Shown piece by piece: positions 1,481-45,500 of a stretch of 64,000 nucleotides of DNA (the first letter of the stretch is position 1; each line of letters begins with the position of its first letter). The stretch is taken from the NCBI GenBank assembly GCA_002025645.1, contig CP018783.1, forward strand, positions 2,976,001-3,040,000, given 5' to 3'. The notes beneath the pieces are model-generated. The model was not told the DNA's origin. It saw only the letters and a program-made list of their open reading frames with translations, and did not search any database. This DNA comes from Curtobacterium pusillum. GTDB taxonomy: Bacteria > Actinomycetota > Actinomycetes > Actinomycetales > Microbacteriaceae. The position numbers and the translations under genes were made by a program.

Positions 1481-1556
1481 GGGCACGAGCCTATACATCC
1501 GTACAGGCAGGAACGGGTGCCGCCGCGCGGCTGTGGACAACTTCCGGGGTGATCGC

Positions 1557-3224: not shown

Positions 3225-3301
3225 GCCCGGAGCGTACCCAGCCCAGGCCCCCGCAGGCTGGGGGAGCGCGTCCCGAGCCCGACCGGCTACCCTTGTGGGC
3301 T

Positions 3302-17628: not shown

Positions 17629-20600
17629 TTGCTGCTCGCACCCCGTCCCCGCCACCGCGCGGAGACCATCGCCCGTCCCCGTTGGTTCCGTGGGATCGCG
17701 ATGGCGCTCGCCGTGCTCATCCCCACCGCCGGCGTCGCGCTCGGCACCGAGGGCGTCGCCCAGGCCGCCGTCGTGCAGTGGGGCACCGGCTCGGACCAGT
17801 CGCCGAACTACCAGGCGACCGTCAACGGCGACTTCACGATGACGGGCAACGGTGTGCTCGCCTGCACCGGCTCCGCGCTCACCGCGACGAACACCAGCGG
17901 CAGCTGCACGGACCTGCACGCGAACAACCCGGGGACGGGTGTCTCCACGTCGTACAACGACTACTTCAAGATGGTGAACTCGAACACCGTCTCCGGCTTC
18001 ACGACGAACTCGTCGACCGGCGCGCTGACGATCCCGGCCGGTGCCACCGTCGCCAAGGCGTACCTCGACTGGAGCGCCAACACGGGTGTGTTCACCGGCG
18101 CCGGCAACGTGACCTGCTCGGGCAACTCGGCGAACGGCTCGCAGTGGTACGCCACCCGGCCGGACGCAGCCTCGGGCTACCGGACCCAGGGCGTGCAGTT
18201 CAAGGTGGGCTCCGGCGCGATCCAGACCGTCGCCCCGCAGGCGCTCCTCGAGGACCCGGCATCGCAGGCGAGTGCGCTGTACTACTCGGCCTCCGCCGAC
18301 GTCACGAGTGCGTTCGCGAACGCCACCACCGGCTCGGCGCTGAACATCAGCGCCGGCAACATCTGGGCCGCGGTCGGCGCCGGTTGCTACGCCGGCTGGT
18401 CGCTCACGGTCGTCTACGACTACGGCAAGTACATCCCCGGCAACGCCGCGAGCGCCCCGCACCGGGTCATCTACTACCAGGGCCACGTGCGCGAGGCCGC
18501 CTCGGACAGCCCGCTCACCGTCAACTTCACCGGGTTCTCGGCGCTGCAGGCCGGCGTGAAGTTCGGCTACACGCTGTACGAGGGGGACCGGGGCATCACC
18601 GGCGACTACATGCGGTACACCCCGCAGGGCGGCAGTCCCACCGAGGTGCTCAACACGAAGAACGCCTCCGGCAACATCGGTGTCGGGCAGGCGGACGGCT
18701 CGGTGCGGTACACGCAGACCAGCGACACGTCGACGTTCACGAACCAGAGCGTCGACGTGCACACCCAGACGCTCAGCGGCGTCGACAAGGGCGACACGTC
18801 GATGACGCTCACGGTCGGCACGAGTGGTGACTCCTACCTGCTGCAGAACGCCGTGCTGTCGGTGCCGACGGCGGCGCTCAGCGTCGTGAAGACCCTGGAC
18901 GGCTCGGCGAACGACCAGTACCGCACCGCTACGGAGAACACCGCGTTCACGATCACCGTGACGAACAACGGCTCGGTGTCGCTGTCGAACATCCAGCTGA
19001 CGTTCCCGGACACCGAGACCTGCACGCCGTCGACGACGATCGCCGGGCCACTGGCCTCCGGAGCGACCGCGACCGTCCGGTGCACGGGGCCGCCGCCCAC
19101 CGCCGCGTCCACCACGAGCTCGGTGACCGCGACCGGTCAGGTCACCAGCGACCCGACGATCACCGTCACCGACACGAACGCGACGAACACCTACCTGTCG
19201 TCGCTCGCCCTCACGAAGACCTCCGCCCTCGCCTCCGGTGCCACCGGCAAGGCGGGCGACACCGTGAACTACACGTTCACCGCCACGAACAACGGCACCT
19301 CCCCGCTCACCGGTGTCGCGATCACCGACCCGCTGTCCGGGCTCTCCGCGCTCACCTACGGCAGCTGGCCGTCCGGCACGAGCGGCACGCTCCAGCCCGG
19401 CCAGGCCGTCACCGCGACGGCGACCTACACGCTGACGCAGACCGACGTCGACGCCGGGTCCGTCGCGAACACCGCCACCGTCACCGGCACCGACCCCGAC
19501 GGCGGCCCGAAGCCCACCGCGACCGCGTCCCGCACCCAGCCGCTGACGGCCGCGAACGCCCTCACGCTGACGAAGGCCGGCTCCCTCGCGTCCGGGAGCA
19601 CCGGCCGGGTCGGCGACACCGTGAACTGGACGTTCCGCCTGACGAACTCCGGCGCGCAGACCATCACCGGTGCGGCGATCACCGACCAGCTCGCCGGCGT
19701 CTCGGCCATCACCTACGGCACCTGGCCGTCGGGCACCACCGGCCGGCTCACCCCCGGGCAGACCGTCACCGCGACCGCCACCTCGACGCTCACCCAGGCG
19801 CAGGTCGACGCCGGCACGCTGACGAACACCGCCACCGCCGCCGGCCGGAGCGCCACCGGCAGCACCGTCACGGCTCCCACCGCCACGGCAACCGTCGCGA
19901 TCCCCGCCGCGAACGCGCTCGTCCTGACCAAGAGCGGCGCCGTCGCCGCTGGGTCAGCGGGCAAGGCCGGCGACACCGTGAACTGGTCGTTCACCCTGCG
20001 CAACACCGGCAACCAGACCGTGACCACCGCGTCGATCACCGACCGGCTCACCGGCGTCTCGGCGCTCACCTACGGCACCTGGCCGTCCGGCACGAGCGGC
20101 ACGCTCGCGCCGGGGCAGACCGTGACCGCCACCGCGACGTACGCGCTCACGCAGACCGACGTCGACGCGGGCAGCGTCGTGAACACCGCCGGAGCCACAG
20201 CACGGGGCGCCACCGGCGGCACCGTCACCGCGCCGGACGCGACGGCGACCGTGGCGGTGACCGATGCCTCCAGTCTGACCATCGTCAAGGACGGGAGCCT
20301 GGCGTCCGGCGCGACCGGGCGGGCCGGGGACACCGTCAACTGGACCTTCACCGTGACGAACGCGGGCAACCGCACCCTCACGGGCGTGACCATCGCCGAC
20401 CCGCTCGCCGGGATCTCGGCGATCACGTACGGCAGCTGGGCCTCCGGCACGACCGGCAAGCTCGCGCCGGGCCAGTCCGTCACCGCGACGGCCACCTCGA
20501 CGCTCACGCAGGCACAGGTGAACGACGGGTCGATCACGAACACGGCGACCGCGAACGGCACGAACCCGTCCGGTACCGCCGTGACGAGCGGGCAGACCTC

Positions 20601-23600
20601 GAAGACCGTCAACATCGCCGCAGCGCAGAAGATCGCCGTGACGAAGACCGGCGCGCTCGCGACCGGTGCCACCGGCAAGGTCGGCGACACCGTGAACTGG
20701 CAGTTCAGCGCCACGAACACCGGCAACACCACGCTGTACGGCGTCGCGATCACCGACGGGCTGAGCGGGATCTCCGCGCTGACGTACAGCTGGCCGGGGA
20801 CCGCCGGGCAGCTCGACCCGAACCAGACCGTCACCGCGACGGCCACGTCCACCCTCACCCAGGCCGACGTCGACGCCGGCAGCGTCGTGAACACGGCGAC
20901 CGGTGCGGGCAACACCCGCGCCGACGGCTCCGGCCAGCCCGCGTCGTCGACGGCCTCCGCCACGGTCGCGGTGTCCCGCGCACCCGGCATCGCGATCGCC
21001 AAGACCGGCGCGCTGGCGTCCGCGGCGACCGGCGCCGTCGGGGACACCGTGAACTACACGTTCACGGTCCGGAACTCCGGCAACACCACCCTCACCGGCG
21101 TGACCGTCGCCGACCCGCTCACCGGGCTGTCGACGATCACGTACGCGTGGCCGGGCACCGCCGGGCGGCTCGCCCCCGGCCAGAGCGCCTCGGGGACGGC
21201 GACCTACAAGCTGACCCAGAAGGACGTCGACGCCGGGTTCGTCCAGAACACCGCGACGGCGACCGGCACCGCACCGAACGGCACCACCGCGACGAACGCC
21301 GCCACCGCGCGGACGACCGTGCCCGCGACGCCGGGGATCGCCGTGTCGAAGACCGGCGCGCTCGCGTCGGGAGCGACCGGTCGCGCCGGTGACACCGTGA
21401 ACTACACGTTCACCGCGCGGAACACCGGCAACCAGACCCTCACCGCCGTGAGCATCGGCGACGCGCTCACCGGCGTCTCCACGCCGGTGTACGGCACGTG
21501 GCCGTCCGGCACCGCAGGCACCCTCGCTCCGGGCCAGTCCGTCACGGCCACCGCGACGTACACGCTCACCCAGGCCGACGTCGACGCCGGCAGCGTGGTG
21601 AACACGGCGCGCGCGACCGCGACGACGCCCGCGCAGGGGTCCGTCTCGGCGACCAGTCCGAACACCCTGCCCGTGCCGTCGTCCGGAGCCCTGACGTTCA
21701 CGAAGACGGGTGCCGTGGCCGGGTCGGGTTCACCGGCGGCCGGCGGCACCGTGAACTGGACGTTCAGCGCCCGGAACACCGGCAACGTCACGCTCACGGG
21801 CGTCGCGATCACCGACCAGCTCGCGGGCCTGTCGGCGATCACGTACTCGTGGCCGGGGACGACGGGCCGCCTGGCACCGGGGCAGACCGTCACGGCCACC
21901 GCGACCTCGACGCTGACCCAGGCGCAGGTCGACGCCGGGACCGTCCGGAACACCGCGACCATCGCGGGCACCACGCCGGGCAACACCCTGGTGTCGCAGG
22001 CGACCGCGGCGTCGGTGTCCGTCGACCGGACCGTCGCGATCAGCGTCGCGAAGTCCGGCGCGCTCGACGCCGGGTCGACCGGCACCGCGGGCGACCGCAC
22101 CACCTGGACCCTCCGCATCACGAACACCGGGACCACCACCCTGACCTCGGTGGGGGCGACGGACTCGCTGGCCGGACTGTCCGGACTGACGTACTCGTGG
22201 CCGGGGACCGCCGGCACGCTCGCCCCGGGCCAGACCGCGACCGCGACGGCGACCGGCAGCGTGTCCCAGACCGACCTCGACGCCGGCTCGGTGACGAACA
22301 CCGCGACGGCGACCGGTTCCGGGCCGTCCGGCACCTCGACCGCCACGGCGCAGGGCTCCGGCACGATCCCGCTCACCGGGTCGCCGGCGCTCGGGTTCAC
22401 CAAGTCGGTCGCCACGGGCACCGGGTACACCGGCCGCGCGGGCGACACCCTGGCCTACACGTTCCGCGCCACGAACTCCGGCAACCAGACCCTGACCGGC
22501 GTCACGATCACCGACCCGCACGCGGGGCTCGGGACGCTGACGTACACGTGGCCGGGTGCCGCCGGACGACTCGCACCGGGACAGTCCGTGACGGCCACCG
22601 CGTCGTACACGGTGACCCAGGCCGACGTCGACGCGGGCACCGTGGCGAACCGTGCCACCGTGTCCGGCACCACGCCGCAGGGGACCGCTGTGTCCACCCC
22701 GGCCACTGCCACGCAGACGATCGCGCCGGCGCCGGGCATCGCCGTGTCGAAGAGCGCCGTCGTCGGTGGGACCGGCGCCGCGGGCGACACGGTCACCTAC
22801 CGCTTCGACGTCGCGAACACCGGCACCACCACGCTCACGGGCGTCGGCGTGAGCGACCAGCTCGCCGGGCTGTCCGGGATCAGCTTCGGCACGTGGCCGT
22901 CCGGCACCACCGGCACCCTCGCACCTGGACAGACCGTCCGCGGGACGGCCACATACGCCGTCACCCAGTCGGACATCGACGCGGGCAGCATCGTGAACAC
23001 CGCGACGTCGACGGCCACCACCCCGACCGGCGGCACCGTCCGGGCGACCGGCGCGGCCACGGTCACGCCGGCCTCCGGCGCACCGGCGATCTCGCTCGCG
23101 AAGACCGAGCGCCTCGCCACGAGTGCCACCGGTGTCGCGGGTGACACCGTCCGGCTCGGGTACACGATCACGAACAGCGGCAACCAGACCCTGACGAACG
23201 TGACCCTCACCGACGAGCAGTCCGGGCACTCCGCGTTCACCTACGGCACGTGGCCGTCCGGAACCGCGGGGACCCTCGGCGTGGGGCAGTCCGTCACCGT
23301 CACCGCGACCTACACGCTCACCCAGGCGGACGTCGACCGCGGCACCGTCTCGAGCGACGCCGCCACCACGGGTGTGTCTCCCGGTGGTGCCACGGTCCGC
23401 GCGACCGACACCGGCTCGGTGGGCACGAAGCGCACCCCGGCGGTCTCGCTCACCGAGACCGGTTCCGTCACGAGCGGTTCCGGCGGCGTCGGCTCCGTCG
23501 TCACGTGGACGTACCAGGCGACGAACACCGGCACCGTCACGCTGACGGTCCCCGAGGTCGTGCACGCCCTCGGGGGGACGGTGACGTACGCGTGGCCGAA

Positions 23601-26600
23601 CGCACCGAACACCCTCGCACCCGGCCAGACCGTCACCGCGACCACCACCTCCACCGTCACCCAGGCCGACGTCGACGCCGGCGCCCTGGTCGACACCTCC
23701 TCGGTCACCGGCACCGCACCGACCGGCACCGACCCGGCCACCGTGTCCGCCACGGCGGCCGCGACCGTCCCCACCTCGAGCGCAGCACCGGGGCTCGCCG
23801 TCACGAAGGCCGAGACCTTCGACGCCGACGGCTCGACGACCCGCGCAGCGACCGCGGGCGACCAGGTCGACATGCGCTACGTCGTCACGAACACCGGCAA
23901 CGTGACGCTCACCGTCGTCGGCGTGCAGGACGCCCAGCGTGGCATCTCGAGCGTCGTCTTCGCCGACGGCGACACCACCATCACGCTCGCCCCCGGCCGC
24001 TCGGCGACCGCCACCGCGACGTACACGCTCAGCCAGTCCGACGTCGACGCGGGCGGCATCCGCTCCGCGGCGACCGCGTTCGGCACCACCCCGGCCGGCA
24101 CCCGCGTCACCGCGACCGCGACCGACGGCGTCACGATCACGCCGACCCCGGCCGTGACGCTGACGAAGACCGCCCGGTACGGCCAGTCCGCCGACGGCGC
24201 CGTGCAGAGCGGCCGGGTCGGCGACACCGTCGTGTTCTCGTTCCTCGCGACGAACACCGGCTCCGTCACCCTGAGCGACCTCGCCCTCCGCGACCAGCTC
24301 ATCGGGCTCGGCGCCTCGACCCCGGTCGCCGACGCCGCGGCCGCCGGGCAGCTCCGGGACCTCGAGTGGTCCGGCGGCACGGCCGGGTCCCTCGCTCCCG
24401 GCGAGCGACTCCGGGCCACCGCTCAGTACACCGTGACGCAGGCCGACGTCGACGCCGGCGCGGTCACGAACACCGCGACCGCCACCGGCACGACGCCCGC
24501 CGGTTCCACGACGAGCCGCGACGCGACCGTCACGATCGCCACCGACGCCGACAACACCGCGGCGATCGGCATCGTGAAGGACGCGTCCGTCCGCGACACC
24601 GGCAGCGCGTCCCGGCCGGGTGACCCGGTCGACCTCGGGTACACGGTCACGAACACGGGCGACTTCACGCTCACCGGCGTGGGCGTCACCGATGCCGGTG
24701 CTGGCTCCGGCGCAGACTCCATCACGTACGGCACCTGGCCGTCCGGCACCACCGGCACGCTCACCCCGGGGCAGACCGTCACCGCCACCGCCGTGCACAC
24801 CCTGACCCAGGCGGACATCGACGCCGGGTACGTCACCAGCCCGGCGACGACCCGCGGCACCCCGTCGAACGGCGGTGCGGCGGTCACGGCGACGAGCTAC
24901 CGGACCGTCCCGGTGACCCAGGTGAACACGTTCGACTTCACGAAGTCCGGTGTGCCCGCGGGCAGCAGCGCGGGAGTCGGCGACGACCTCCGGTTCACCC
25001 TCACCGCACGGAACACCGGCAACACCACGCTCGACCTGCTGCAGATGACCGACCAGCTGCAGGGCGTCGGGGTGCTGTCGTACACGTGGCCGGACCCCTC
25101 CCGCCCCGGCGTGGTCGCACCCGGCGAGGTCGCCACGGCCACGGCGGCGTACACGATCAGCCAGGCGGACGTGGACTCCGGCAGCGTCGTGAACACCGCG
25201 AACGCCGTCGCCAGCCCGCCGGCCGGAGCCGCGATCACGAAGACCGCCACGAGCACCACCGCGGTCGACGCGAGCGCTCCGACGATCACGCTCGACAAGA
25301 CCGAGGCCGTCGCCGACGGTTCCGCTGGTGTCGCCGGTGACACCGTGCGCTTCGGGTACACGATCACGAACTCCGGGACGACGACGCTGACGGGCGTCGG
25401 GCTGACCGACGAGCAGCAGGGGTTGTCCGGCATCACGTTCGGTGCCTGGCCCTCCGGGACCACCGGCACGCTCGCCCCCGGCCAGTCGGTCACCGCCACG
25501 GCGAGCTACCGGCTCACCCAGGCGGACGTCGACCGCGCCGCCGCGGACACCGACGGTCACGTCGCACTGTCCAGCGGCGCCACCACCACCGCGACCGACC
25601 GGCGGAGCGGCGCCGCGGTCTCGGCGACCGACGACGGCAGCGTCGTGCTCGACCCGACCTCGGCCCTGTCGACGCGCAAGACGGCCGCGGTCGTCGGTGC
25701 CGGCGACATCGGTGCCGTGCGGGTCGGCGACGTCGTCCGGTACACCGTCACCGCGACGAACACCGGGCAGACGACCCTCACCGCCGTGACGGTTGACGAC
25801 CCGCTCGCCGGGCTCGGCGCCCCCACCACGACGTGGCCGAACGCCACCGCGGGAACGCTGTCGCCCGGCCAGGCGGTCGTCGTCACGGCGGACCGCACCG
25901 TCACGCAGGACGACGTGGACGCCGGATCGATCGCGAACACCGCGACCACCACGGGCACCACCCCGGCCGGCACGACCGTGTCCGGTTCGGGGACGCGCAC
26001 CGTCGTCACGACGACCGGGGCGCCCGGCATCGGGATCCAGAAGACCGAGACGAACCGGGGAGCGGGCGCCGCCGGCGACACCGTCGACCTCACGTTCACG
26101 GTCACGAACACCGGCGACGTCACGCTCACCGGTGTGGGGGTCACCGACTCGCAGCAGGGCCTGTCCGCCGTCCGGTTCGACGCCTGGCCCGGTGGCACCG
26201 CCGGACGACTCGCGCCCGGGCAGTCCGTCGTCGCCCACGCCACGTACACGCTCACGCAGCAGGACGTCGACCGCGGCAGCGTCGCGAGCACCGCGACGAC
26301 CACCGGCACCCCGCCCCGCGGCGCCGACGTCGCCGCGTCCGACGACGGCGGCGTGACCGTCGCGCCGCGCGGCGCCCTGTCGATCGACAAGACCGGCAGC
26401 CTCGGCGGCTCGACCGGGGCCGTCGGCGACACCGTCCGCTACACGTTCCGCGTCGCCAACACCGGCAACGTCACCGTCACCGGGGTGGCCGTCTCCGACG
26501 TCCTCGCCGGGGTGTCCGACGTCGAGGTCGCCGACTGGCCGGCCGCCGCCGGCCGCCTGGCCCCCGGGCAGGCCGTCACCGGCTCGGCGACGTACCGCGT

Positions 26601-29600
26601 CACCCAGGCCGACGTCGACGCCGGCAGCGTGCTGAACGACGCCACCGTCACCGGCAGCACGCCCACGGGTGACTCGGTCACGGCGTCCGACGCCGCGACC
26701 GTCGCACTCGCCACGGCCGTGCCCGGCATCCGGCTCGACAAGACCGAGCAGCTCGCCGGCGGTGCGACCGGGGTCGCGGGCGACACCGTGCGGTTCGGGT
26801 ACACGATCACGAACACCGGCACGGCGACGCTGTCCGCCGTCGAGCTCGCGGACGCACAGGCGGGGCTGTCGGACATCGCGTTCGGCACCTGGCCGACCGC
26901 CGTCGGCACCCTCGCGCCAGGCCAGTCGGTCACGGCCACGGCGTCGTACACGCTGACCCAGGCGGACGTGGACCGCGGCAGCGTCGCGAGCACCGCGACC
27001 GCCACGGGCACCGGTCCGACGGGCACCCGCGTCGGTGACACGGCGCAGGGTTCCGTCCCGCTGACCGCAGCGGCGAGCGTCGGCGTCACGAAGCGCGCCG
27101 CGTACGTCGACGGCGGCACCGGCCGCGTCGGCGACACCGTCCGCTACACCTTCACCGTCACGAACACCGGCCAGGTCACGCTCGGCTCGGCCCGCGTGAC
27201 GGACCGCCTCGCCGGACTCGGCACGATCACCGTGGCGGCCGGTCCGAACGGCGACGGCTCCCTCGCACCGGGTCAGGCACTCAGCGCGACGGCCGGCTAC
27301 ACGGTCACGCAGGCCGACGTCGACGCGGGCGCGATCGTCAACCAGGCGACCGTCACGGCGACGCCGGCACGTGGCGCGGACGTCACGGCGTCCGACAGCG
27401 CGACGATCCGCACGAGCGACGGCGCCCCGGCGATCGCGCTGACGAAGACCGAGCAGCTCGCCGCGACCGGCACGCCGGCCGTCGGTGACACGGTCCGGCT
27501 CGGCTACACGATCACGAACACGGGGAACCAGACGCTCCGGGGCGTCGTGGTCGCCGATGCCCAGACCGGCACGAGCGCCGTCACGTACGGCACGTGGCCG
27601 GGCACCGCGGGCACGCTCGCGCCCGGCCAGTCCGTCACGGCCACCGCGACGTACGCGCTCACCCAGGCTGACCTCGACGCTGGTCGCGTCGCGAGTGCCG
27701 CCACCGCCGCCGGCACGGCACCGACGGGAGGCACGGTGCGCGACACCGACACCGCCGGCGTCGACCTCGCCCAGGCTCCAGAGCTCACCCTGCTGAAGCA
27801 GGGCCGGCTCGCGCCCGGTGCGACCGGTTCCGCGGGTGAGGGCATCCGCTACACCTTCACCGCCACGAACACCGGCAACGTGACCGTCACGTTGCTCGAC
27901 CTGATCGACCGCATGCCCGGCCTCAGCGACCCGACCGTCGACGAGTGGCCGGGAGCCGTCGGCGTCCTCGCTCCGGGGCAGACCGTGACCGCCTCGGCGA
28001 CGTACACGATCACGCAGTCGGACGTCGATGCCGGCGCCGTCACCAACACCGCGACCGTCGTGGGGCGTGCGCCAGACGGCTCCGACGTGACCGGGACCGA
28101 CGGCACCACCGTCGAGACCGCCGCGTCCGGCCCGCGCATCGGGGTGGTGAAGACCGCGGCGCTCGCGAGCGGCTCCACCGGCGTGGCCGGCGACCGGGTC
28201 GAGTACACCTACGCGATCACGAACACCGGCAACGTCACCCTGACCGGCGTCACCGCCCGTGACGACCAGACCGACGTGTCCACCGTCGTGTACGGCACCT
28301 GGCCGGGCACCGTCGGGCGGCTCGCACCGGGGGAGACCGTCACCGCGACGGCGTCCCACGTGCTCACGCAGGCCGAGGTCGACCGGGGCACGCTGACGAG
28401 CACCGTCACGGCCACGGGGAACGCCCCCGGCGGCACCGGGGTCAGCGACGCCGACACCCGCTCCGTGACCATCGCTCCGTCGCCCTCGATCACGCTGTCG
28501 AAGACGGCCGCGTACACCGACGGGGGCACCGGACGCGTCGGCGACACCGTGCGCTACACGTTCCGCGCGCAGAACACCGGCACCGTCACCCTCACCGGGA
28601 TCACGGCGTCCGACCGGCTCGCCGGGCTCTCCGCGATCGACGCCGACTGGCCGGGCACGGCGGGCACGCTCGCCCCCGGGGCCGTCGTCACCGCGACGGC
28701 GACGTACACGGTCACCCAGGCCGACGTCGACGCCGGCAGCATCGTCAACCAGGCGACGGTCGTCGGCAACCCGCCGACCGGGGCACCGGTGACCGCGACC
28801 GACGGCGCGACGATCCGCACGGCGGACCCGTCCGACGCGATCGCGCTCGTGAAGGACGAGCGCGTGACCTCGGGCACGGGCGTCGCGGGCGACACCGTCA
28901 CGCTGACGTTCACCGTCTCGAACCCCGGGAACCGCACGCTCACCGGCATCACGCTCGACGACGACCAGGCGCGCCTCGGGACCGTCACCTACGGCACCTG
29001 GCCCGGTACGGTCGGCACGCTCGCGCCGGGGCAGTCCGTCACCGCGACCGCGACGTACACGCTCACCCAGGCGGACGTCGACCGCGGATCGATCGCCAGC
29101 ACCGCCACGACGACGGCGACCGTCCCCTCGGGCGAGGTCGTCACCGCCACGGCCGACGGCGGCGTGGACACCGTCCGCACCGGCTCGTGGACGTTCGACA
29201 AGTCGGGCGTGCTGGCCGACGGCGACCAGGGCGACCTGGGCGACCGCATCGACTGGACGTACCGGGTGACGAACACCGGCACCGTCACCCTCACGGGCGT
29301 CTCGGTCGCGGACGCCCTACCAGGGGTCTCCGCACTCGTCGTGGGGACGTGGCCGAACGGCACCGCCGGGCAGCTCCTGCCCGGGCAGTCGGTGACCGCC
29401 ACGGCACGCTCGACCGTCGCGCAGTCGGACGTCGACGCCGGCAGCGTCGTGAACACCGCGACCGCCGACGCCACCGTGCCGACCGGTGTGACCGACCCCG
29501 GTCCACAGCGGGACAGCGCCACGGTCGCACTGCGTGCCTCGACCCAGCAGGTCGCCGTCACGAAGACCGCGAGCCTGGCCGACGGCGCGACCGGGAAGGC

Positions 29601-32600
29601 CGGCGACACGGTCGACTTCGGCTACGTCGTGACGAACACCGGCACGTCGACCCTCCGCGGTGTGACGCTCGCCGACGCGCAGACCGGCACGTCCGCGATC
29701 ACCATCGCCTGGCCGGGGACCACCGGGGTGCTCGCACCCGGGGAGTCCGCACGCGCCTCCGCGGCCTACGTGCTCACGCAGGCCGACGTCGACAAGGGGA
29801 CCCAGACCTCCCGGGTCACCGCGACCGGCACCGCACCCGGTGGCGCGACCGTCGACGCAGCCGACACGGCCACCGTCACCATCACCGCCCGACCGGCTGT
29901 CGAACTGACGGAGGAGGGCGCGCTCGCACCCGGCGCGACCGGCGCCGTCGGCGACACCGTGCAGTGGACGTACACCGTGACGAACTCCGGCACCGTGTCG
30001 CTCGATGCGACCGCGATCGCCCAGCAGCTCCAGGGCAGCGGCGACGTGACGTTCGGCACCTGGCCGGGCACCCCCGGCGTGCTCGCCCCGGGGCAGACCG
30101 TCACCGCGACGGCGACCTCGACGATCACCCAGGCGCAGTTCGACGCCGGCCGGGTGACCAACCCGGCCACCGCGTCCGGCACGGCTCCGGACGGTGCCGT
30201 CGTCACCGCCGACGCCACCGCGACGGTCGAGACCGGCCCCGCCGACGCCCGCATCGGGATCACGAAGACCGCGGCACTGCCGGACGGCGACACCGCCCCG
30301 CGGGCCGGGGACGTCGTGACGTTCACCTACCGGGTGACGAACAGCGGCACCTCGACGCTCTCGGGTGTCACGGTCGCCGACGCGCAGGACGGCGTGGGTG
30401 CCGTGTCGTACGACTGGCCCGGGACCGCGGGCACGCTCGCACCGGAGCAGGTCGTCACCGCCACCGCGACGTACACGCTGACCCAGGCGGACGTCGACCG
30501 CGGGAGCATCGCCAGCGCCGCGACCACGAACGGCACCCCGCCGACCGGCACCGACGTCACGGCCGCCGCGGGCGCGACGCTCGTCCTACCCGGCGCCCCG
30601 GAGCTCAGCGTCACCAAGGACGGTGCGCTCGCGGATGGCGCGGCTGGTTCCGTCGGCGACACCGTCGACTACCGCGTGACGATCCGGAACACCGGCACCA
30701 CCACCCTGCGCGACGTCGCCGCGAGCGACCCGCTGCCGGGGCTCGGCGCGCTGACGTTCCCCGACGCCTTCGACGGCACGCTCGCCCCCGGGGCCGACGT
30801 CGTCGCCACCGCGGCGTACACGGTCACGCAGGACGACGTGGACGCCGGCAGCGTCGTGAACACCGCGACGGCGACCGCCAACCCGCCGACGGGCGGCCCG
30901 GTCTCGGCCGAGGGCAGCGCCACCGTGACCCTCGCGGCCGCGGACGCCGGCATCGACATCGTGAAGACCCAGCGCCTCGCCGACGGCGCAACCGGGCGTG
31001 CGGGCGACCAGGTCACGTACACGATCACGATCACGAACACCGGGGCCGCGACCCTCCGCGGCGTCACCGTCGCGGACGGGCAGCCTGGCCTGGGCGCGAT
31101 CTCGATCGACTGGCCGGCCGCGTCCGGAGTCCTCCGGCCCGGACAGACCGCCACGGCCACGGCGACCTACACGCTGACCCAGCAGGACGTCGACCGCGGT
31201 TCGGTCTCGAGCACGGCGACCACGACCGGCACGAGCCCGGCCGGGGCGACCGTGCGGGCCTCGGACGACGGGTCGACCACCGTCACCGGGACCCCCGGCC
31301 TGACCGTCACGAAGTCCGGCGCACCCGCGTCCGGGACGACCGCGGGCCGCGGCACCGAGCTCCGCTGGACGATCGACGTCCGGAACAGCGGCACCGTCAC
31401 GCTGACCGGGGTCGCGGTCACGGACGAGCTCGCCGGCTTCCGGACCACCGGCACCGCGTGGCCGGGTGCCGAGGGCGCCCTCGCACCGGGCGAGACCGTC
31501 CGGGTCACCGGCACGAGCACCGTCGGACAGGCGGACGTCGACGCCGGCGGGGTCGTGAACACCGCGCGGGCGACGGGCACGGCACCGGACGGTGTCGTGG
31601 TGGACGGCGGCGGCGCCGCGACGGTGCCGACGGACGCCGCACCCGCGGGGATCTCGATCGTGAAGACCGCGTCCCTGGCACCGGGCGCGACCGGCGCCGT
31701 GGGCGACACCGTCCGGTACCACTACGTCGTCACGAACGGCGGTGACACGACCCTGCGCGGCGTCACCGTGCGCGACGCCGGAGCGGGGGTCTCCGCGATG
31801 ACCTACGCCTGGCCGGGCGAACCGGGCGTGCTCCTGCCAGGGGAGACCGTCGAGGTCGACGCGACCGTCGTGGTCACCCAGGCGGACGTGGACGCCGGAT
31901 CGCTGTCCTCGTCGGCGACGGTCGTCGGCACCGCACCGGGCGGCACCACCGTCACCGACACGTCCGAGGCCGGGGTCTCCCTGCCGAACGCACCGCACCT
32001 GACCCTCGACAAGCGCGGGGTGCTCGCGCCCGGGGCAACCGGTGCCGTCGGGGACCGCGTGGACTACACCTTCACCGTGACGAACGACGGCTCCGCGCCG
32101 ATCACGGACGTCACCCTCGACGACGGCCTCGCCGGGCTCACCGACGTCAGCTGGACCTGGCCGGGCACCGTCGGCACGCTCGCCCCGGGCGAGCAGGCGA
32201 CCGGCACGGCCAGCTACCGCATCACGCAGGCGGACGTCGACGCCGGCGGCGTGGTGAACACCGCGACCGTCGGTGGCACCGGACCGGGCGGCACCGACGT
32301 CACGAGCGGCGCGTCCTCGGCCACCGCACCCGTCGCGGGCCGCGGCTCGCTGACGATCGACAAGACCGTGCAGTACGCCGCCGGCTCCGACGGCGCCGTG
32401 GGCCAGCAGTTGCAGTACGGCTTCACGCTCGTCAACACCGGCACCGTCACCCTGCGCGGCGTGCACGTCGACGACCGGCTCGCCGGACTCTCCGACGTCA
32501 CCTACGGCCAGTGGCCCGGCGCCGCGGGCGTCCTCGCCCCCGGACAGCGGGTGACGGCGACCGCCACCTACGTGGTCGGTCAGGCCGACGGTGCTTCCGG

Positions 32601-32847
32601 TAGCGTCGAGAACAGCGCGACGGCGATCGGGACGCCGCAGCCCGGGACCCTGCCCGGAGACGGCCCGATCACGTCAGCGCCCGACACCGTCCGGATCGCG
32701 GTCCACCCGGCCGCGGGGGTCCCTGCCCTCGCGTTCACCGGGTCCGACCCCGTGCCGGCAATCGCCGTGGCCGCACTCCTCGTGCTGCTCGGCATCGCAA
32801 CGGCGGCCATCGGGAGCCGCCGTCGCACCAGGAAGGAACACCGATGA
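17629..32847 (+). CDS. Giant cell-wall-anchored surface protein with 38 DUF11-like repeats and LAFTG sorting signal
   Basis: 5,072 residues. TTG start chosen because GGAAGG (17616-17621) lies 7 nt upstream. A long signal peptide ends near residue 46 (GVAQA). Residues 47 to about 415 form a unique head domain; 416-525 hold a divergent DUF11-like unit with two Cys. From residue 526 come 38 tandem beta-sandwich repeats of about 118 residues, each with consensus KTG..ASGATG..GDTVNYTF, then NTGN.TLTGV, W...G.L.PGQ, and TQADVDAGSV.NTAT. The tail has LAFTG (5034-5038), a membrane helix (about 5047-5066) and RRRTRKEHR, the class E (LAxTG) sortase arrangement of actinobacteria. It probably forms a long stalk presenting the head. 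Its TGA overlaps the ATG of the lipoprotein gene. Adhesin or fibril function is inference. Confidence 0.9.
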   Translation: MLLAPRPRHRAETIARPRWFRGIAMALAVLIPTAGVALGTEGVAQAAVVQWGTGSDQSPNYQATVNGDFTMTGNGVLACTGSALTATNTSGSCTDLHANNPGTGVSTSYNDYFKMVNSNTVSGFTTNSSTGALTIPAGATVAKAYLDWSANTGVFTGAGNVTCSGNSANGSQWYATRPDAASGYRTQGVQFKVGSGAIQTVAPQALLEDPASQASALYYSASADVTSAFANATTGSALNISAGNIWAAVGAGCYAGWSLTVVYDYGKYIPGNAASAPHRVIYYQGHVREAASDSPLTVNFTGFSALQAGVKFGYTLYEGDRGITGDYMRYTPQGGSPTEVLNTKNASGNIGVGQADGSVRYTQTSDTSTFTNQSVDVHTQTLSGVDKGDTSMTLTVGTSGDSYLLQNAVLSVPTAALSVVKTLDGSANDQYRTATENTAFTITVTNNGSVSLSNIQLTFPDTETCTPSTTIAGPLASGATATVRCTGPPPTAASTTSSVTATGQVTSDPTITVTDTNATNTYLSSLALTKTSALASGATGKAGDTVNYTFTATNNGTSPLTGVAITDPLSGLSALTYGSWPSGTSGTLQPGQAVTATATYTLTQTDVDAGSVANTATVTGTDPDGGPKPTATASRTQPLTAANALTLTKAGSLASGSTGRVGDTVNWTFRLTNSGAQTITGAAITDQLAGVSAITYGTWPSGTTGRLTPGQTVTATATSTLTQAQVDAGTLTNTATAAGRSATGSTVTAPTATATVAIPAANALVLTKSGAVAAGSAGKAGDTVNWSFTLRNTGNQTVTTASITDRLTGVSALTYGTWPSGTSGTLAPGQTVTATATYALTQTDVDAGSVVNTAGATARGATGGTVTAPDATATVAVTDASSLTIVKDGSLASGATGRAGDTVNWTFTVTNAGNRTLTGVTIADPLAGISAITYGSWASGTTGKLAPGQSVTATATSTLTQAQVNDGSITNTATANGTNPSGTAVTSGQTSKTVNIAAAQKIAVTKTGALATGATGKVGDTVNWQFSATNTGNTTLYGVAITDGLSGISALTYSWPGTAGQLDPNQTVTATATSTLTQADVDAGSVVNTATGAGNTRADGSGQPASSTASATVAVSRAPGIAIAKTGALASAATGAVGDTVNYTFTVRNSGNTTLTGVTVADPLTGLSTITYAWPGTAGRLAPGQSASGTATYKLTQKDVDAGFVQNTATATGTAPNGTTATNAATARTTVPATPGIAVSKTGALASGATGRAGDTVNYTFTARNTGNQTLTAVSIGDALTGVSTPVYGTWPSGTAGTLAPGQSVTATATYTLTQADVDAGSVVNTARATATTPAQGSVSATSPNTLPVPSSGALTFTKTGAVAGSGSPAAGGTVNWTFSARNTGNVTLTGVAITDQLAGLSAITYSWPGTTGRLAPGQTVTATATSTLTQAQVDAGTVRNTATIAGTTPGNTLVSQATAASVSVDRTVAISVAKSGALDAGSTGTAGDRTTWTLRITNTGTTTLTSVGATDSLAGLSGLTYSWPGTAGTLAPGQTATATATGSVSQTDLDAGSVTNTATATGSGPSGTSTATAQGSGTIPLTGSPALGFTKSVATGTGYTGRAGDTLAYTFRATNSGNQTLTGVTITDPHAGLGTLTYTWPGAAGRLAPGQSVTATASYTVTQADVDAGTVANRATVSGTTPQGTAVSTPATATQTIAPAPGIAVSKSAVVGGTGAAGDTVTYRFDVANTGTTTLTGVGVSDQLAGLSGISFGTWPSGTTGTLAPGQTVRGTATYAVTQSDIDAGSIVNTATSTATTPTGGTVRATGAATVTPASGAPAISLAKTERLATSATGVAGDTVRLGYTITNSGNQTLTNVTLTDEQSGHSAFTYGTWPSGTAGTLGVGQSVTVTATYTLTQADVDRGTVSSDAATTGVSPGGATVRATDTGSVGTKRTPAVSLTETGSVTSGSGGVGSVVTWTYQATNTGTVTLTVPEVVHALGGTVTYAWPNAPNTLAPGQTVTATTTSTVTQADVDAGALVDTSSVTGTAPTGTDPATVSATAAATVPTSSAAPGLAVTKAETFDADGSTTRAATAGDQVDMRYVVTNTGNVTLTVVGVQDAQRGISSVVFADGDTTITLAPGRSATATATYTLSQSDVDAGGIRSAATAFGTTPAGTRVTATATDGVTITPTPAVTLTKTARYGQSADGAVQSGRVGDTVVFSFLATNTGSVTLSDLALRDQLIGLGASTPVADAAAAGQLRDLEWSGGTAGSLAPGERLRATAQYTVTQADVDAGAVTNTATATGTTPAGSTTSRDATVTIATDADNTAAIGIVKDASVRDTGSASRPGDPVDLGYTVTNTGDFTLTGVGVTDAGAGSGADSITYGTWPSGTTGTLTPGQTVTATAVHTLTQADIDAGYVTSPATTRGTPSNGGAAVTATSYRTVPVTQVNTFDFTKSGVPAGSSAGVGDDLRFTLTARNTGNTTLDLLQMTDQLQGVGVLSYTWPDPSRPGVVAPGEVATATAAYTISQADVDSGSVVNTANAVASPPAGAAITKTATSTTAVDASAPTITLDKTEAVADGSAGVAGDTVRFGYTITNSGTTTLTGVGLTDEQQGLSGITFGAWPSGTTGTLAPGQSVTATASYRLTQADVDRAAADTDGHVALSSGATTTATDRRSGAAVSATDDGSVVLDPTSALSTRKTAAVVGAGDIGAVRVGDVVRYTVTATNTGQTTLTAVTVDDPLAGLGAPTTTWPNATAGTLSPGQAVVVTADRTVTQDDVDAGSIANTATTTGTTPAGTTVSGSGTRTVVTTTGAPGIGIQKTETNRGAGAAGDTVDLTFTVTNTGDVTLTGVGVTDSQQGLSAVRFDAWPGGTAGRLAPGQSVVAHATYTLTQQDVDRGSVASTATTTGTPPRGADVAASDDGGVTVAPRGALSIDKTGSLGGSTGAVGDTVRYTFRVANTGNVTVTGVAVSDVLAGVSDVEVADWPAAAGRLAPGQAVTGSATYRVTQADVDAGSVLNDATVTGSTPTGDSVTASDAATVALATAVPGIRLDKTEQLAGGATGVAGDTVRFGYTITNTGTATLSAVELADAQAGLSDIAFGTWPTAVGTLAPGQSVTATASYTLTQADVDRGSVASTATATGTGPTGTRVGDTAQGSVPLTAAASVGVTKRAAYVDGGTGRVGDTVRYTFTVTNTGQVTLGSARVTDRLAGLGTITVAAGPNGDGSLAPGQALSATAGYTVTQADVDAGAIVNQATVTATPARGADVTASDSATIRTSDGAPAIALTKTEQLAATGTPAVGDTVRLGYTITNTGNQTLRGVVVADAQTGTSAVTYGTWPGTAGTLAPGQSVTATATYALTQADLDAGRVASAATAAGTAPTGGTVRDTDTAGVDLAQAPELTLLKQGRLAPGATGSAGEGIRYTFTATNTGNVTVTLLDLIDRMPGLSDPTVDEWPGAVGVLAPGQTVTASATYTITQSDVDAGAVTNTATVVGRAPDGSDVTGTDGTTVETAASGPRIGVVKTAALASGSTGVAGDRVEYTYAITNTGNVTLTGVTARDDQTDVSTVVYGTWPGTVGRLAPGETVTATASHVLTQAEVDRGTLTSTVTATGNAPGGTGVSDADTRSVTIAPSPSITLSKTAAYTDGGTGRVGDTVRYTFRAQNTGTVTLTGITASDRLAGLSAIDADWPGTAGTLAPGAVVTATATYTVTQADVDAGSIVNQATVVGNPPTGAPVTATDGATIRTADPSDAIALVKDERVTSGTGVAGDTVTLTFTVSNPGNRTLTGITLDDDQARLGTVTYGTWPGTVGTLAPGQSVTATATYTLTQADVDRGSIASTATTTATVPSGEVVTATADGGVDTVRTGSWTFDKSGVLADGDQGDLGDRIDWTYRVTNTGTVTLTGVSVADALPGVSALVVGTWPNGTAGQLLPGQSVTATARSTVAQSDVDAGSVVNTATADATVPTGVTDPGPQRDSATVALRASTQQVAVTKTASLADGATGKAGDTVDFGYVVTNTGTSTLRGVTLADAQTGTSAITIAWPGTTGVLAPGESARASAAYVLTQADVDKGTQTSRVTATGTAPGGATVDAADTATVTITARPAVELTEEGALAPGATGAVGDTVQWTYTVTNSGTVSLDATAIAQQLQGSGDVTFGTWPGTPGVLAPGQTVTATATSTITQAQFDAGRVTNPATASGTAPDGAVVTADATATVETGPADARIGITKTAALPDGDTAPRAGDVVTFTYRVTNSGTSTLSGVTVADAQDGVGAVSYDWPGTAGTLAPEQVVTATATYTLTQADVDRGSIASAATTNGTPPTGTDVTAAAGATLVLPGAPELSVTKDGALADGAAGSVGDTVDYRVTIRNTGTTTLRDVAASDPLPGLGALTFPDAFDGTLAPGADVVATAAYTVTQDDVDAGSVVNTATATANPPTGGPVSAEGSATVTLAAADAGIDIVKTQRLADGATGRAGDQVTYTITITNTGAATLRGVTVADGQPGLGAISIDWPAASGVLRPGQTATATATYTLTQQDVDRGSVSSTATTTGTSPAGATVRASDDGSTTVTGTPGLTVTKSGAPASGTTAGRGTELRWTIDVRNSGTVTLTGVAVTDELAGFRTTGTAWPGAEGALAPGETVRVTGTSTVGQADVDAGGVVNTARATGTAPDGVVVDGGGAATVPTDAAPAGISIVKTASLAPGATGAVGDTVRYHYVVTNGGDTTLRGVTVRDAGAGVSAMTYAWPGEPGVLLPGETVEVDATVVVTQADVDAGSLSSSATVVGTAPGGTTVTDTSEAGVSLPNAPHLTLDKRGVLAPGATGAVGDRVDYTFTVTNDGSAPITDVTLDDGLAGLTDVSWTWPGTVGTLAPGEQATGTASYRITQADVDAGGVVNTATVGGTGPGGTDVTSGASSATAPVAGRGSLTIDKTVQYAAGSDGAVGQQLQYGFTLVNTGTVTLRGVHVDDRLAGLSDVTYGQWPGAAGVLAPGQRVTATATYVVGQADGASGSVENSATAIGTPQPGTLPGDGPITSAPDTVRIAVHPAAGVPALAFTGSDPVPAIAVAALLVLLGIATAAIGSRRRTRKEHR
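19204..32703 (+). repeat. Array of 38 coding tandem repeats (about 354 bp each)
   Basis: The repeat region of the giant surface protein. Unit starts include 19204 (first), 23086 (twelfth) and 32347 (last). Units vary in sequence but keep GDTV near the start and TQADVD near the end. Units 1-11 are one subtype; units 12-37 alternate strictly between two subtypes. Confidence 0.9.
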
Positions 32848-33311
32848 CCCTGCGCCCCACGCGCTCCCTGTCCGTCCGACTCCTGGCACTCGCCGGGGTC
32901 GCCGCGCTCGGCGTCGGCCTCGCCGGCTGCTCGGGTGGTGACAGCCCCGACGGGAAGGCCTCGGCGTCGTCCTCCGCGGCGGCCACCGAGCGTCCGGCGA
33001 TCACCGACGTGAAGACGCCGGCCGGCGGCACCGGGGACTTCGTCGGCGCGAAGTCGGACGTGCAGGTCACCTCGTGCAAGCGCTCCGGCTCGTCGTGGGC
33101 GGTCGTGGGGACGGTCAAGAACCCGGAGAAGACCGGTCAGGGCTACCGCATCTACGTCTCGCTGCTCAAGGGAGCGTCGGACACCCGCGCCGTCAAGGAG
33201 GTCGACGTCGCCTCCGTCGGCGCCGGCGCCTCGGCGGACTGGGACACCACGATCGACACGTCGGAGAGCGGGCTCTCCTGCGTGCTGCGCGTGGAGCGCT
33301 TCGCGGCCTGA
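32844..33311 (+). CDS. Lipoprotein with FxLYD-like domain
   Basis: 155 residues. Type II signal peptide with lipobox LAGC and Cys at about 30, then a Ser/Ala-rich linker and a compact domain (DVQVTSCKRSGSSWAVVGTV...YRIYVSLL...VERFAA) resembling FxLYD-type Ig-like folds. Two Cys (about 76 and 149) could form a disulphide. ATG overlaps the giant-gene stop (ATGA) and has AAGGAA upstream, so the two are translationally coupled. A role as membrane-anchored partner or assembly factor of the surface protein is inferred from this coupling only. Confidence 0.8.
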   Translation: MTLRPTRSLSVRLLALAGVAALGVGLAGCSGGDSPDGKASASSSAAATERPAITDVKTPAGGTGDFVGAKSDVQVTSCKRSGSSWAVVGTVKNPEKTGQGYRIYVSLLKGASDTRAVKEVDVASVGAGASADWDTTIDTSESGLSCVLRVERFAA

Positions 33312-42425: not shown

Positions 42426-42544
42426 CAGGCTGACCACCCCCGAACGAGGGACGTCCCCCAAAGTGCGGACTGTGCGACCTGAGAGGAAACGCATAACTTC
42501 ACAGCAATTCCTTGCGAAACACGGACGAACCGGGAGTGCGCCCT

Positions 42545-45500
42545 TTGAACCGTGCAACACCGAACAACGACCCGACCCCCACCCCGAACCGCATCGCGCG
42601 CGTCCTGACCGCCGGCATCGCCGCCGCGGCACTGGCGTGCGGCGGGCTCGCCCTCGGAGGGGGAGCCGCCTCGGCAGCCCCTGCCGGACCGGTGCCGGCC
42701 GACCTCAAGCTCTCGCAGCCGCTGCGGGACGCGAAGCCCTCGAAGACGATCGCCGCGTTCGTGCGGACGACCGGTCAGGGTGCGCTCGAGGTCGACGCCC
42801 AGGCGAAGGGCGGGGACCTGACGAAGTCGAAGACCCCGTCCTCGGCCGCCGAGCAGCGCGTCAAGGCGATCGGTTCGACGGTCGACGCCGTGCGCGCCGC
42901 CGTCAAGCAGTCCGACGCGGACGCGACCGAGCTCTACTCCACCGAGTACACCGTGCCGGGCGTGGCCGTCGTCGCCGACGTCGCCGCGCTCCGGAAGGTC
43001 GCGGCCCGCTCCGACGTCGAGAGCATCATCCCGCTCACGCCGAAGAAGATCGTCGACCCGACCGTGAACGCCGACTCCGGCGCGGCACCGTCCGGCGTCG
43101 ACCCGAGCCTCACGAAGCCCGGCGCGGACGGCGTCACACCGAAGAACGCGGCGAGCGACGTCTACACCCGCTCGCTCGACGCCTGGCAGCAGACGGGCCG
43201 CACGGGCAAGGGCGTGAACGTCGCCGTGCTCGACACCGGCCTCGACTACACGCAGGCGGACTTCGGCGGCCCGGGCACCACTGCCGCGTACCAGGCGGCG
43301 CTCGCCAACACCGGCGCACCGACCGCCGGGTCCTACGACGGCAAGAAGTTCCTCGGCGGCTACGACTTCGCCGGACCCACGTACAACGCGGACTCCACCG
43401 ACCCCGCGTACGACCCGACCCCGAAGCCGGACGACAACCCGATCGACGGCAAGGGCGGCGACCACGGCACCCACGTCTCCGGCACCATCGCCGGCTACGG
43501 CCTCGACGCCGACAAGAAGACCTACCGGGGCGACTACACGAAGCTCACCACGCAGCAGGTCCAGGACATGTGGGTCGGCCCGGGCACCGCGCCCCAGGCG
43601 GGTCTCTACGCCCTCAAGGTGTTCGGTGACGGCGGCGGCTCGACCGACCTCACCGGTGCCGCGCTCGACTGGGTCGGCCAGGCGCTGACCGAGGGCAAGG
43701 ACATCAACGTCCTCAACCTGTCGCTCGGCTCCGACTACGGTGCGCCGGACGACCCCGACAACGCCAAGATCGACGCGCTCACCGCCCGCGGTGTCCTGCC
43801 GGTGATCGCCTCCGGCAACGCCGACGACTTCACCGACATCGGTGGCTCGCCGGGCAACGCCGAGGGAGCCCTCACGGTCGCCGCGAGCGCCACCGGGCAG
43901 TCGCTGTACGACGGTGTCGAGGCGACCGCACCGGCGGACGTCGCGAAGACCTGGCGTGCCCAGTACTCGCAGAACTACCAGGGCACGCTGCCCGTCGAGG
44001 GTGACGTCGTCGTCCCGAGCACCAACGTCGACGGCTGCGCCGCGTTCAGCGCGGACGAGGCAGCGAAGATCGCCGGCAAGGTGGTCTGGCTCAAGTGGAC
44101 CGACGCCGCGCTCGAGTGCGGCTCCGGCGTGCGCTTCACCAACGTCGAGGCCGCCGGCGGCGTCGGCGTCCTGCTGGCGGGGACGATCAACACGTTCGAC
44201 TCCGGCATCGCGGGGAACGCGACCATCCCGGGAGCCGAGCTGACCGCGGACAGCGTCACGGGCCTCCAGGCCGCTGCCCAGGCCGGGACCCTGCACGTGC
44301 GCTTCGCCGACGAGCTCAAGGGCTTCGAACTCGCGACCGACCCGGAGACCGTGAACACGCTCGCGTCGTTCACCAGCCGTGGCGTGCACGGATCGTTCGA
44401 CGACATCGTCAAGCCGGACATCGCCGGACCCGGGGTCAACGTGATCTCCGCGGCCAACGGCACCGGTGACGGACGCCTCTCGATGAGCGGCACGTCGATG
44501 GCGACGCCGGACGTGGCGGGCATCGCCGCGCTGACCTTCCAGTCGCACCCGACGTGGTCGGCACCGCAGGTCAAGGCCGCGCTCATGAACACCGCGACGC
44601 ACGACGTCGAGGACGGCGACGGCACCGCCACCCTGCTCCGCCAGGGCACCGGTCGCGTCGACGCCCTGCAGGCGGTCACCGCAGGCACCACGGTCCGCAG
44701 CATCGAGAACGACCAGCTCGTCACCGCCTCGTACGGTGTCGTCGAGGTCGCCTCGAAGACCAGCGAGAACCGCACGCTGCAGATCGAGAACACCGACGGT
44801 CGGCCGCACACCTACGACGTGGCCTACCAGCCGCAGGTCTCGCAGCCGGGTGTGGCCTTCGCGCTCAGCGCGAAGCGCGTGACGGTCCGACCGCACGGCA
44901 CCGCGACGGTGAAGCTCACGTTCTCGATCGCCGACCCGACGAAGCTCCGCCGCGTCATCGACCCAACGCAGGAGTCGGTGCAGCAGGGCTACCAGCGGGA
45001 GTTCGTCGCCGCGGCCTCGGGCATCGTGACGTTCACGCCGACCGACGAGAAGCTCAACCCGCTGCGGCTCGGCACGTACGTCGCGCCGAAGCCGGTGAGC
45101 GCGGTGCACGGCTCCGACGTCGCGTTCCCCTCCACGAAGAACACGGCGGACCTCACGCTGACCGGCCGCTCGGTCGACCAGGGCGACGCGACGACCGGCT
45201 ACCACGCAGCCGTCGCACCGTTCGTGCTCGGCGGGACGGACGGCCAGGAGTCCTTCCCGGCCGGCTCGGCGAAGCAGTCCCTGCAGGCGGCGGACGTCCG
45301 GGCCTACGGCGCGAACTACGACAAGGCGTCGGACACCCTCGCGTTCGGCGTCCAGACGGCCGGTCCCGACGCCAACCCCGGCGCCGTGACCAACGTCGAG
45401 GTCCTCATCGACACCGACCGTGACGGCACGCCGGACTACCTGGTGTACGACGCCAAGTCGGCAGCGGTGGACGCCACGTTCGCCACGACCGTCGACCTCG

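Follow-up and report, generated by a model that had tools for sequence, protein, structure and literature searches.

Two alternating repeat types in a 5,072-residue, putatively wall-anchored stalk protein of Curtobacterium pusillum

The stretch analysed here, called the window, comprises 64,000 nucleotides of Curtobacterium pusillum (assembly GCA_002025645.1, contig CP018783.1, positions 2,976,001 to 3,040,000). One very large gene, at 17629-32847 on the plus strand of the window, forms a single frame of 5,072 codons, free of stops and of N. It encodes a stalk protein with an N-terminal head, in which two types of repeat, here called A and B, alternate strictly over 26 consecutive domains. The alternation is conserved in another genus, and the stalk gene is coupled to a gene for a small lipoprotein. 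The stalk frame is divided as follows.

17629 to 17766, plus strand: signal peptide, residues 1-46, with a TTG start, an Arg n-region and a hydrophobic core, MALAVLIPTAGVALG
17767 to 18876, plus strand: N-terminal head, residues 47-416, linked to DUF3344 through homologues
18877 to 19203, plus strand: D0, the first stalk domain, residues 417-525, a CARDB-like immunoglobulin (Ig) domain
19204 to 23088, plus strand: repeats 1-11, DUF7507 domains, all with Lys/Asp/Asn and predicted to be locked by isopeptide bonds
23089 to 32349, plus strand: repeats 12-37, thirteen B/A pairs, the even repeats being B and the odd ones A
32350 to 32703, plus strand: repeat 38, with Lys/Asp/Asn
32728 to 32847, plus strand: sorting signal, with LAFTG (residue 5034), a hydrophobic segment, an RRRTRKEHR tail and the stop

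The frame appears to be a genuine gene, subject to purifying selection, since the G+C content at third codon positions (GC3) is uniform, at 0.91-0.98 across 25 printed 600-base blocks, and the ratio of nonsynonymous to synonymous substitution rates (dN/dS) against the congener G327 is low throughout. It is 0.148 in the head (268 aligned codons), the lowest among the parts compared, 0.215 in repeats 1-11, 0.28 in the B repeats and 0.32 in the proximal A repeats taken together with repeat 38. The G327 homologue has an in-frame stop within the head. The TTG start at 17629 is favoured because GGAAGG lies 7 bases 5' of it, and this start gives the signal peptide a charged n-region. On the minus strand, antisense to the repeats, a frame of 2,209 codons stays open (21730-28359); the high GC3 probably explains it, and it is not counted as a gene.

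Frame breaks or contig ends fall within the array in four relatives (G346, G135, G136 and G056), as would be expected if such repeats were collapsed or expanded in assembly or annotation. For the window this explanation is highly improbable and was ruled out: the frame is open with uniform GC3, the repeat count is identical in five genomes, and the longest exact internal repeat is only 32 bp, which makes a collapsed array unlikely. The repeats share a mean DNA identity of 60% (maximum 74%) and a mean protein identity of 49% (range 34-66%). An earlier note on this DNA had read here one gene of 5,072 residues with 38 repeats, and had considered a collapsed or frameshifted array. The single gene is borne out, its frame is intact, a collapse is unlikely, and both a profile built from the repeats themselves and the Pfam profile over its cut-off count 38.

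The repeats are assigned by profile scores to DUF7507 (CLIPPER_2, PF24346), a sister family of DUF11. Of 39 matches in the stalk frame, 38 exceed the cut-off of 27, and D0 falls below it at 25.1. For the two halves of the protein, DUF7507 scores 1444.5 and 1936.1 bits against 210.7 and 241.5 for DUF11 (PF01345). DUF11 proper was rejected, as its scores are over the DUF11 cut-off yet far below those of DUF7507; the earlier description of the repeats as DUF11-like was close, and DUF7507 is the better family. The 38 domains occupy residues 526-5025 (matches to the self-built profile span 526-5007), and D0 precedes them as a 39th, CARDB-like stalk domain (31.6 bits against CARDB, cut-off 22.7).

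Structure prediction of adjacent repeats, a check that the earlier note had proposed, gave a confident Ig-like model. AlphaFold2, run on repeats 21-23 (A-B-A) with an alignment of 42 triplets, predicted three consecutive Ig-like sandwiches with a predicted local distance difference test score (pLDDT) of 95.7. Structural matches of the triplet include integrin legs, antigen I/II C-terminal domains, cadherins, RTX-adhesin extenders and ciliary proteins. The best VIA match (Z 12.2, 313 residues) has a root-mean-square deviation of 18.3, which on the model is a match between chains of similar domains that are differently bent. A profile search of the Protein Data Bank (PDB) with the stalk triplet, to E 0.01, yielded one weak match, probably by chance.

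DUF7507 domains are listed as predicted to form intramolecular Lys-Asn isopeptide bonds with a Lys/Asp/Asn triad (PMC12617251, Table 1, Costa et al.). With this triad placed on the repeats by alignment, repeats 1-11 carry Lys/Asp/Asn in 11/11 cases. From repeat 12 to repeat 37 the pattern changes: the even repeats (B) have Lys/Asp/Ser in 13/13, with Gln two residues after the Asp in 11 and Gly in two, while the odd repeats (A) keep Asn in 12/13 and the full triad in 11/13. The two changed odd repeats, 13 (Glu/His/Asp) and 31 (Glu/Gln/Asn), are both without Lys and Asp. The triad is thus complete in 23 of the 38 repeats and incomplete in 15, namely the 13 B repeats and repeats 13 and 31. A strict alternation of Ser and non-Ser over 26 repeats corresponds, by arithmetic, to 2 of C(26,13)=10,400,600 possible orders. 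Identity between repeats 12-38 is higher at even than at odd lags over lags 1-12. The regular architecture previously remarked upon therefore stands as regards the 38 tandem repeats; its main point, the two alternating types from 12 to 37, had been missed.

For the residues that distinguish the two types, 48 A and 52 B domains were compared across four genomes, after exclusion of four A rows whose triad is lost. The sites that separate A from B best are residue 91, the triad Asn, and residue 46, two after the Asp. Residue 91 is Asn in 48/48 A domains, and Ser (50) or Thr (2) in B; residue 46 is Leu (39), Met (8) or Ile (1) in A, and Gln (46), Gly (3), Leu (2) or Arg (1) in B. Across 15 arrays, Gln-46 occurs in 0/414 Lys/Asp/Asn domains, 29/39 Lys/Asp/Ser domains and 6/77 other domains, a count that leaves out first domains and in which the types share descent, so that the events are not independent. 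Of the Lys/Asp/Ser domains with Gln, seven lie outside the 39-domain type described below: five are at position 46 of their proteins, and the other two are domain 35 of G218 and domain 34 of G048. A tree built from six arrays places 25/26 B domains of the window and of the Frigoribacterium genome G167 together with domain 46 from each of the four 48-domain proteins used, and with one domain 29 (support 0.72). Judged from this tree, the B type is old, is present in few copies in the 48-domain proteins, and has multiplied in alternation in the window array. An independent origin of the Gln/Ser pair is supported neither by the tree nor by the 15-array count.

The head was found in 29/398 genomes of the family, and in 12/150 of an earlier sample; the head profile matched 16/396 genomes of the phylum (the first and last counts include the C. 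pusillum genome itself). A scan of named genomes gave 31 loci, which belong to Curtobacterium, Microbacterium, Salinibacterium, Frigoribacterium, Schumannella, Arenivirga, Lacisediminihabitans, Mycetocola, Okibacterium, [Zimmermannella], other Microbacteriaceae or marine actinobacteria, Brevibacterium and a Micropruina bin. Arrays were read in 27 of the 29 head genomes, the partial matches G261 and G264 being left out, and the domain counts given here include the first, CARDB-like domain. Counts of 39 and 48 dominate, each in more than one genus. The window, G214, G327, G167 and G260 have 39 domains, and all five alternate, with a few further changed domains; the layout and the near-identical alternation are shared by the two Frigoribacterium genomes, G167 and G260. 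Eleven genomes in four other genera (g22, g37, g48 and g82) have 48 domains. The remaining arrays have 47 (G218, of the same genus as G167 and G260), 36 (G048), 34 (G174), 29 (G332), 9 (G002), 2 (G182) and 1 (G060); in G346 the array is split by a frame break, and those of G136 and G056 run off their contigs. The G135 array (L025, L026 and L121) comprises 75 DUF7507 repeats over about 28 kb with one frame change, and has a lipoprotein gene at its end.

The registers of these arrays are informative about their age. The best match between the window array and that of G167 is at offset 0 (0.545), against 0.488 at even offsets and 0.447 at odd ones. By this and by the shared 39-domain layout the array is older than the split between Curtobacterium and Frigoribacterium, and identity in the proximal array between the two genera is now about 51-52% (window against G167). 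Among five 48-domain proteins (G111, G145, G082, G118 and G021) offset 0 is the best register in 10/10 pairs (0.465-0.747, other offsets averaging 0.41-0.46), so that the 48 positions are inherited. In these five and in G048 (6/6 arrays), proximal identity over lags 1-9 peaks at lag six. When the 36 domains of G048 are compared with the 48-domain proteins, offsets 0, 6 and 12 are about equal, clearly so with G118 and G021, narrowly with G111 and G145, and whole six-domain blocks seem from these comparisons to have been gained or lost. The possibility that the window array is a shortened 48-domain array was rejected, as there is no collinearity with the 48-domain proteins beyond the first repeats. 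The SpoU methylase gene, the upstream neighbour of the stalk gene in the window, is found in 14/26 of the relatives' stretches, in one of them only as an end piece; this neighbourhood speaks for vertical descent with losses.

Loss of bond residues is commoner in the proximal half in 9/11 proteins compared. Complete triads number 22/23 distally and 9/24 proximally in G118, and 14/19 and 9/19 in the window. In G021 the losses follow a period of three (domains 26, 29, 32, 35, 38, 41 and 44), besides domains 20, 30, 46 and 48.

Export and anchoring are indicated by both ends of the protein, whose signal peptide and sorting signal were judged by eye. Cleavage of the signal peptide is placed, likewise by eye, after VAQA (VAQA|AVVQW). 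The C-terminal signals of relatives are similar to LAFTG: LAFTG, LSYTG, LAHTG, LARTG, LASTG and LAWTG. Class E sortases prefer LAxTG, and a class E sortase gene is present in the same genome (C1:3094275-3094697; NF033747, 222.7 bits, cut-off 160, E 4.6e-66), so that the combination expected of a class E substrate is found. The order of signal peptide, N-terminal head, tandem stalk domains and C-terminal sorting signal is that of a Gram-positive fibrillar adhesin. The wall-anchored stalk with a head that had been proposed for this gene is thus supported by the sequence, namely the signal peptide, the LAFTG, hydrophobic segment and RRRTRKEHR tail and the class E sortase gene, as well as by the predicted Ig-like model.

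Two genes follow the stalk gene directly.

32844 to 33311, plus strand: small lipoprotein, 155 residues, with an LAGC lipobox; its ATG overlaps the stalk stop (ATGA)
33327 to 35780, plus strand: large LuxR-type regulator, 817 residues, with a GerE match, just after the lipoprotein gene; a possible regulator

The lipoprotein is coupled to stalks well beyond the window. Among the 24 relatives whose sequence reaches past the stalk stop, 18 show the same -4 (ATGA) overlap with a homologous lipoprotein gene, which makes 19 loci with the window. In G135 the stalk frame stops where the frame changes, and the lipoprotein gene sits at the other end of the array; no lipoprotein homologue was found beside the stalk in G002, G060, G174, G182 and G332. 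The 19 aligned lipoproteins all have one mid-region cysteine and a C-V-[LP]-R-V-E-R-[FY] motif near the C-terminus. Searched across the 398 genomes, the lipoprotein has 28 clear matches, spread over 27 of them (E 1.1e-20 or better); weaker ones (65/92 genomes, whose best matches do not surpass E 1.5e-10) were discounted as probably due to a similar lipobox. Apart from the one in G264, all the clear matches were inspected, and 27/27 lie directly downstream of DUF7507 repeats. Six of these loci, in five genomes without the head (G125, G291, G325, G360 twice, and G208), have the lipoprotein after stalks of 8-15 repeats. Because genomes without the head also have the pair, lipoprotein and stalk form a cassette of the stalk class, and not of the head. 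The lipoprotein itself has no match in Pfam up to E 1, and none over the cut-off in NCBIfam. Only one lipoprotein match is present in the C. pusillum genome. Two further DUF7507 genes lie elsewhere in this genome, at C1:2826156-2829407 and C1:2160038-2162305 (frames of 1,568 and 2,908 residues).

The LuxR-type regulator is less widespread. It was detected by tblastn in 5/26 of the relatives' stretches, those of G214, G327, G167 and G260, all of the 39-domain type, and more weakly in G002; the 48-domain stretches gave no match, and some of them extend 1.4-1.7 kb beyond the stalk. Further along the window, 42512-46183 (plus strand) encodes a large subtilase, a 1,223-residue frame with Peptidase_S8 and a PA-like insert just under the cut-off, which might process surface proteins. 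Two small proteins encoded next to each other, at 50921-51250 and 51331-51675 (plus strand), have similar ends and are apparently tandem paralogues.

The head had been described as having no recognised function, and this still holds, with the addition of an indirect family link. It matches nothing in Pfam or NCBIfam up to E 1, including PF11824 (DUF3344) when compared directly, and nothing among PDB sequences, where the sole profile hit was an antibody chain at E 0.13. Two stand-alone homologues of the head do match PF11824, at 29.7 bits and, just under the cut-off of 27.2, at 27.0 bits, so that by sequence the head is linked to DUF3344 through homologues. DUF3344 is given an ambiguous function in the part of PMC9210967 concerned with the N-terminal regions of predicted fibrillar adhesins (cluster 23). 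The position, N-terminal and before stalk domains, is the same in both cases; the differences are that the head here has no direct Pfam match and is tied to the family via its stand-alone homologues. A structural search with the head and D0 gave, among the 50 Foldseek rows shown, no query-normalised template-modelling score (TM-score) above 0.22; in the VIA rows it is mainly D0 (model residues 369-478) that aligns, with Ig-like domains such as those of transglutaminases. The head family also recurs in frames that differ in length, and in one other genus (g91, with large genomes) in frames of about 400 codons; together with the lowest dN/dS and with 57 invariant columns across 28 sequences, this suggests a function of its own. 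L107 and L108 are proteins of about 400 residues that share the head without any stalk, from genomes of 8.6 and 9.2 Mb.

The explanation that fits these results best, to which a probability of roughly 0.66 may be given, is that of a giant single-chain fibrillar adhesin that is stiff distally, and whose proximal part, with alternating bonded and unbonded domains, yields under load. The gene, its architecture, the alternation with its recurrence in a second genus, and the coupling to the lipoprotein gene are shown by the analysis; bond formation, mechanics, adhesion and the role of the lipoprotein are what we infer here. The signal peptide would export the stalk, and the class E sortase would probably fix it to peptidoglycan via LAFTG. 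The DUF3344-linked head would then be held about 150 nm from the wall (39 domains of about 4 nm each), and the 100-150 nm put forward in the earlier note is a reasonable estimate. Distal repeats 1-11, with the residues for a Lys-Asn isopeptide bond in every domain, would make a stiff tip. Under pull the A domains would mostly be clamped, as a Lys 7-Asn 91 bond would shunt about 84 of 117 residues; a B domain without the bond, by contrast, could unfold fully, releasing by contour-length arithmetic about 40 nm each and about 0.5 um for all thirteen. The alternating proximal part would thereby form a force-buffering base beneath the stiff tip. The coupled lipoprotein may be a dedicated partner of the stalk class, perhaps in export, in folding or in the hand-over to sortase at the membrane. 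This mechanism is favoured because of the DUF7507 matches, the A-B-A model, the triad pattern, the alternation across genera, the sortase and the lipoprotein coupling.

Several observations weigh against it. The triad was placed by alignment and not by structure. The same genome also has a class F sortase gene (C1:3532195-3532608; 174.9 bits, cut-off 166), so that the anchoring enzyme may be of either class. The arrays of G174 (16/16 and 17/17 complete triads) and G332 (13/14 and 13/14) show no contrast between distal and proximal halves and have no lipoprotein. The gene is dispensable, to judge from its presence in only 3/10 sampled genomes of the genus. CnaA-like bonded domains can partly unfold under tension, as mentioned in PMC12617251 (citing Echelman 2016), which weakens the contrast between locked and yielding domains. 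Finally, the alternation could be a relic of the doubling of a two-domain unit.

The last point is the main rival to the mechanical explanation, possible though distinctly less probable. The proximal array would have grown by copying one B-A pair, the bond-deficient B would have been carried along, the alternation would have no mechanical role, and the repeat counts would have been frozen once the DNA copies were too diverged to recombine. The grouping of 25/26 B domains mostly in one clade agrees with this, as do the divergence of the copies, with no exact repeat longer than 32 bp at 60% mean DNA identity, and the loss of bond residues in relatives too, at various positions. It accounts less readily for the state of the B domains in the window and G167, which have kept Lys (26/26), Asp (26/26), Ser (25/26) and Gln (23/26) despite the low identity between the genera, while many unbonded domains of the 48-domain proteins, by contrast, have also lost Lys. 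This retention is suggestive only, given that other core positions of B are equally conserved. The B residues could alternatively reflect another autocatalytic cross-link, in which the amide has moved from 91 (Asn) to 46 (Gln), as a Lys7-Gln46 isopeptide or a Ser91-Gln46 ester. The two best-separating sites are exactly these, Gln-46 is absent from the Lys/Asp/Asn domains and frequent in the Lys/Asp/Ser ones, Lys and Asp are invariant in B, and the C-terminal half of the giant adhesin of Mobiluncus mulieris likewise holds most of its Thr-Gln ester domains, according to the domain layout given in PMC10619420. Such a bond is nevertheless doubtful: the association largely reflects the shared ancestry of a single domain type, the same residues would also be explained by a buried polar network, and the top matches of a literature search, taken by title and start of abstract, showed no bond of this kind. 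Slightly less probable again is a wider proposal, in which B is a second self-cross-linking type (Gln 46 joined to Lys 7 or Ser 91, catalysed by Asp 44) whose register was fixed before the Curtobacterium/Frigoribacterium split and in which the count, 39, or 48 in six-domain super-units, was selected as a length ruler.

The stalk might instead serve as a surface coat or steric spacer, a dense layer of long chains that is protective or that hides other adhesins, with the head as a cap. For fibrillar surface proteins, part of PMC9210967 deals with stalk-like N-termini and with steric regulators, SasG among them. This is rather unlikely, though less so than the cross-link, and it sits poorly with a head that is the most constrained part compared (dN/dS 0.148, 57 invariant columns) and whose family recurs in frames of other lengths and in the g91 frames of about 400 codons, as if it had a function of its own.

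Among known systems, Gram-negative giant extenders of tandem Ig-like domains are similar as extenders, and differ by their identical Ca-dependent repeats; they are reportedly not sortase-anchored. The closest counterpart described is the Mobiluncus adhesin, reported as a chain of 7,651 residues with 51 cross-linked Ig-like domains, 33 isopeptide and 18 ester (PMC10619420). Like the stalk considered here, it is an actinobacterial giant wall-anchored single chain with an N-terminal adhesin region and self-cross-linking Ig-like domains, and its second domain type lies mostly in the C-terminal half. Two bond types within one giant actinobacterial adhesin would therefore have a precedent. It differs in having Spy0128-like isopeptide and Thr-Gln ester domains, and the domain description in that source shows no strict alternation or coupled lipoprotein. 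CLIPPER_2/DUF7507 and CLIPPER/DUF11 stalks share the domain family, the tandem arrangement in long surface proteins and the Lys/Asp/Asn triad, and both DUF11 domains without bond residues and arrays alternating DUF11 with DUF7507 feature among those covered in PMC12617251. The stalk differs from what is set out there in that the two types which alternate both belong to DUF7507 and are told apart at the bond site, and in that the register is kept in two genera. For DUF7507 the literature search gave one paper. The layout was not described in the top matches of the literature search by title and start of abstract, and no description of the alternation or of the lipoprotein partner gene was found there.

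The stalk is real and conserved, and belongs to a known kind of surface protein, within which its order is unusual. It lends itself to a natural comparison, in which bonded and apparently unbonded copies of one fold are adjacent thirteen times per chain. If the mechanical explanation is true, the bacterium grades the stiffness of its stalk by single residues, Asn or Ser; if instead the B domains are cross-linked, they would represent a new protein self-ligation chemistry. The conserved lipoprotein partner would provide an initial way into the export, folding and anchoring of such giants.

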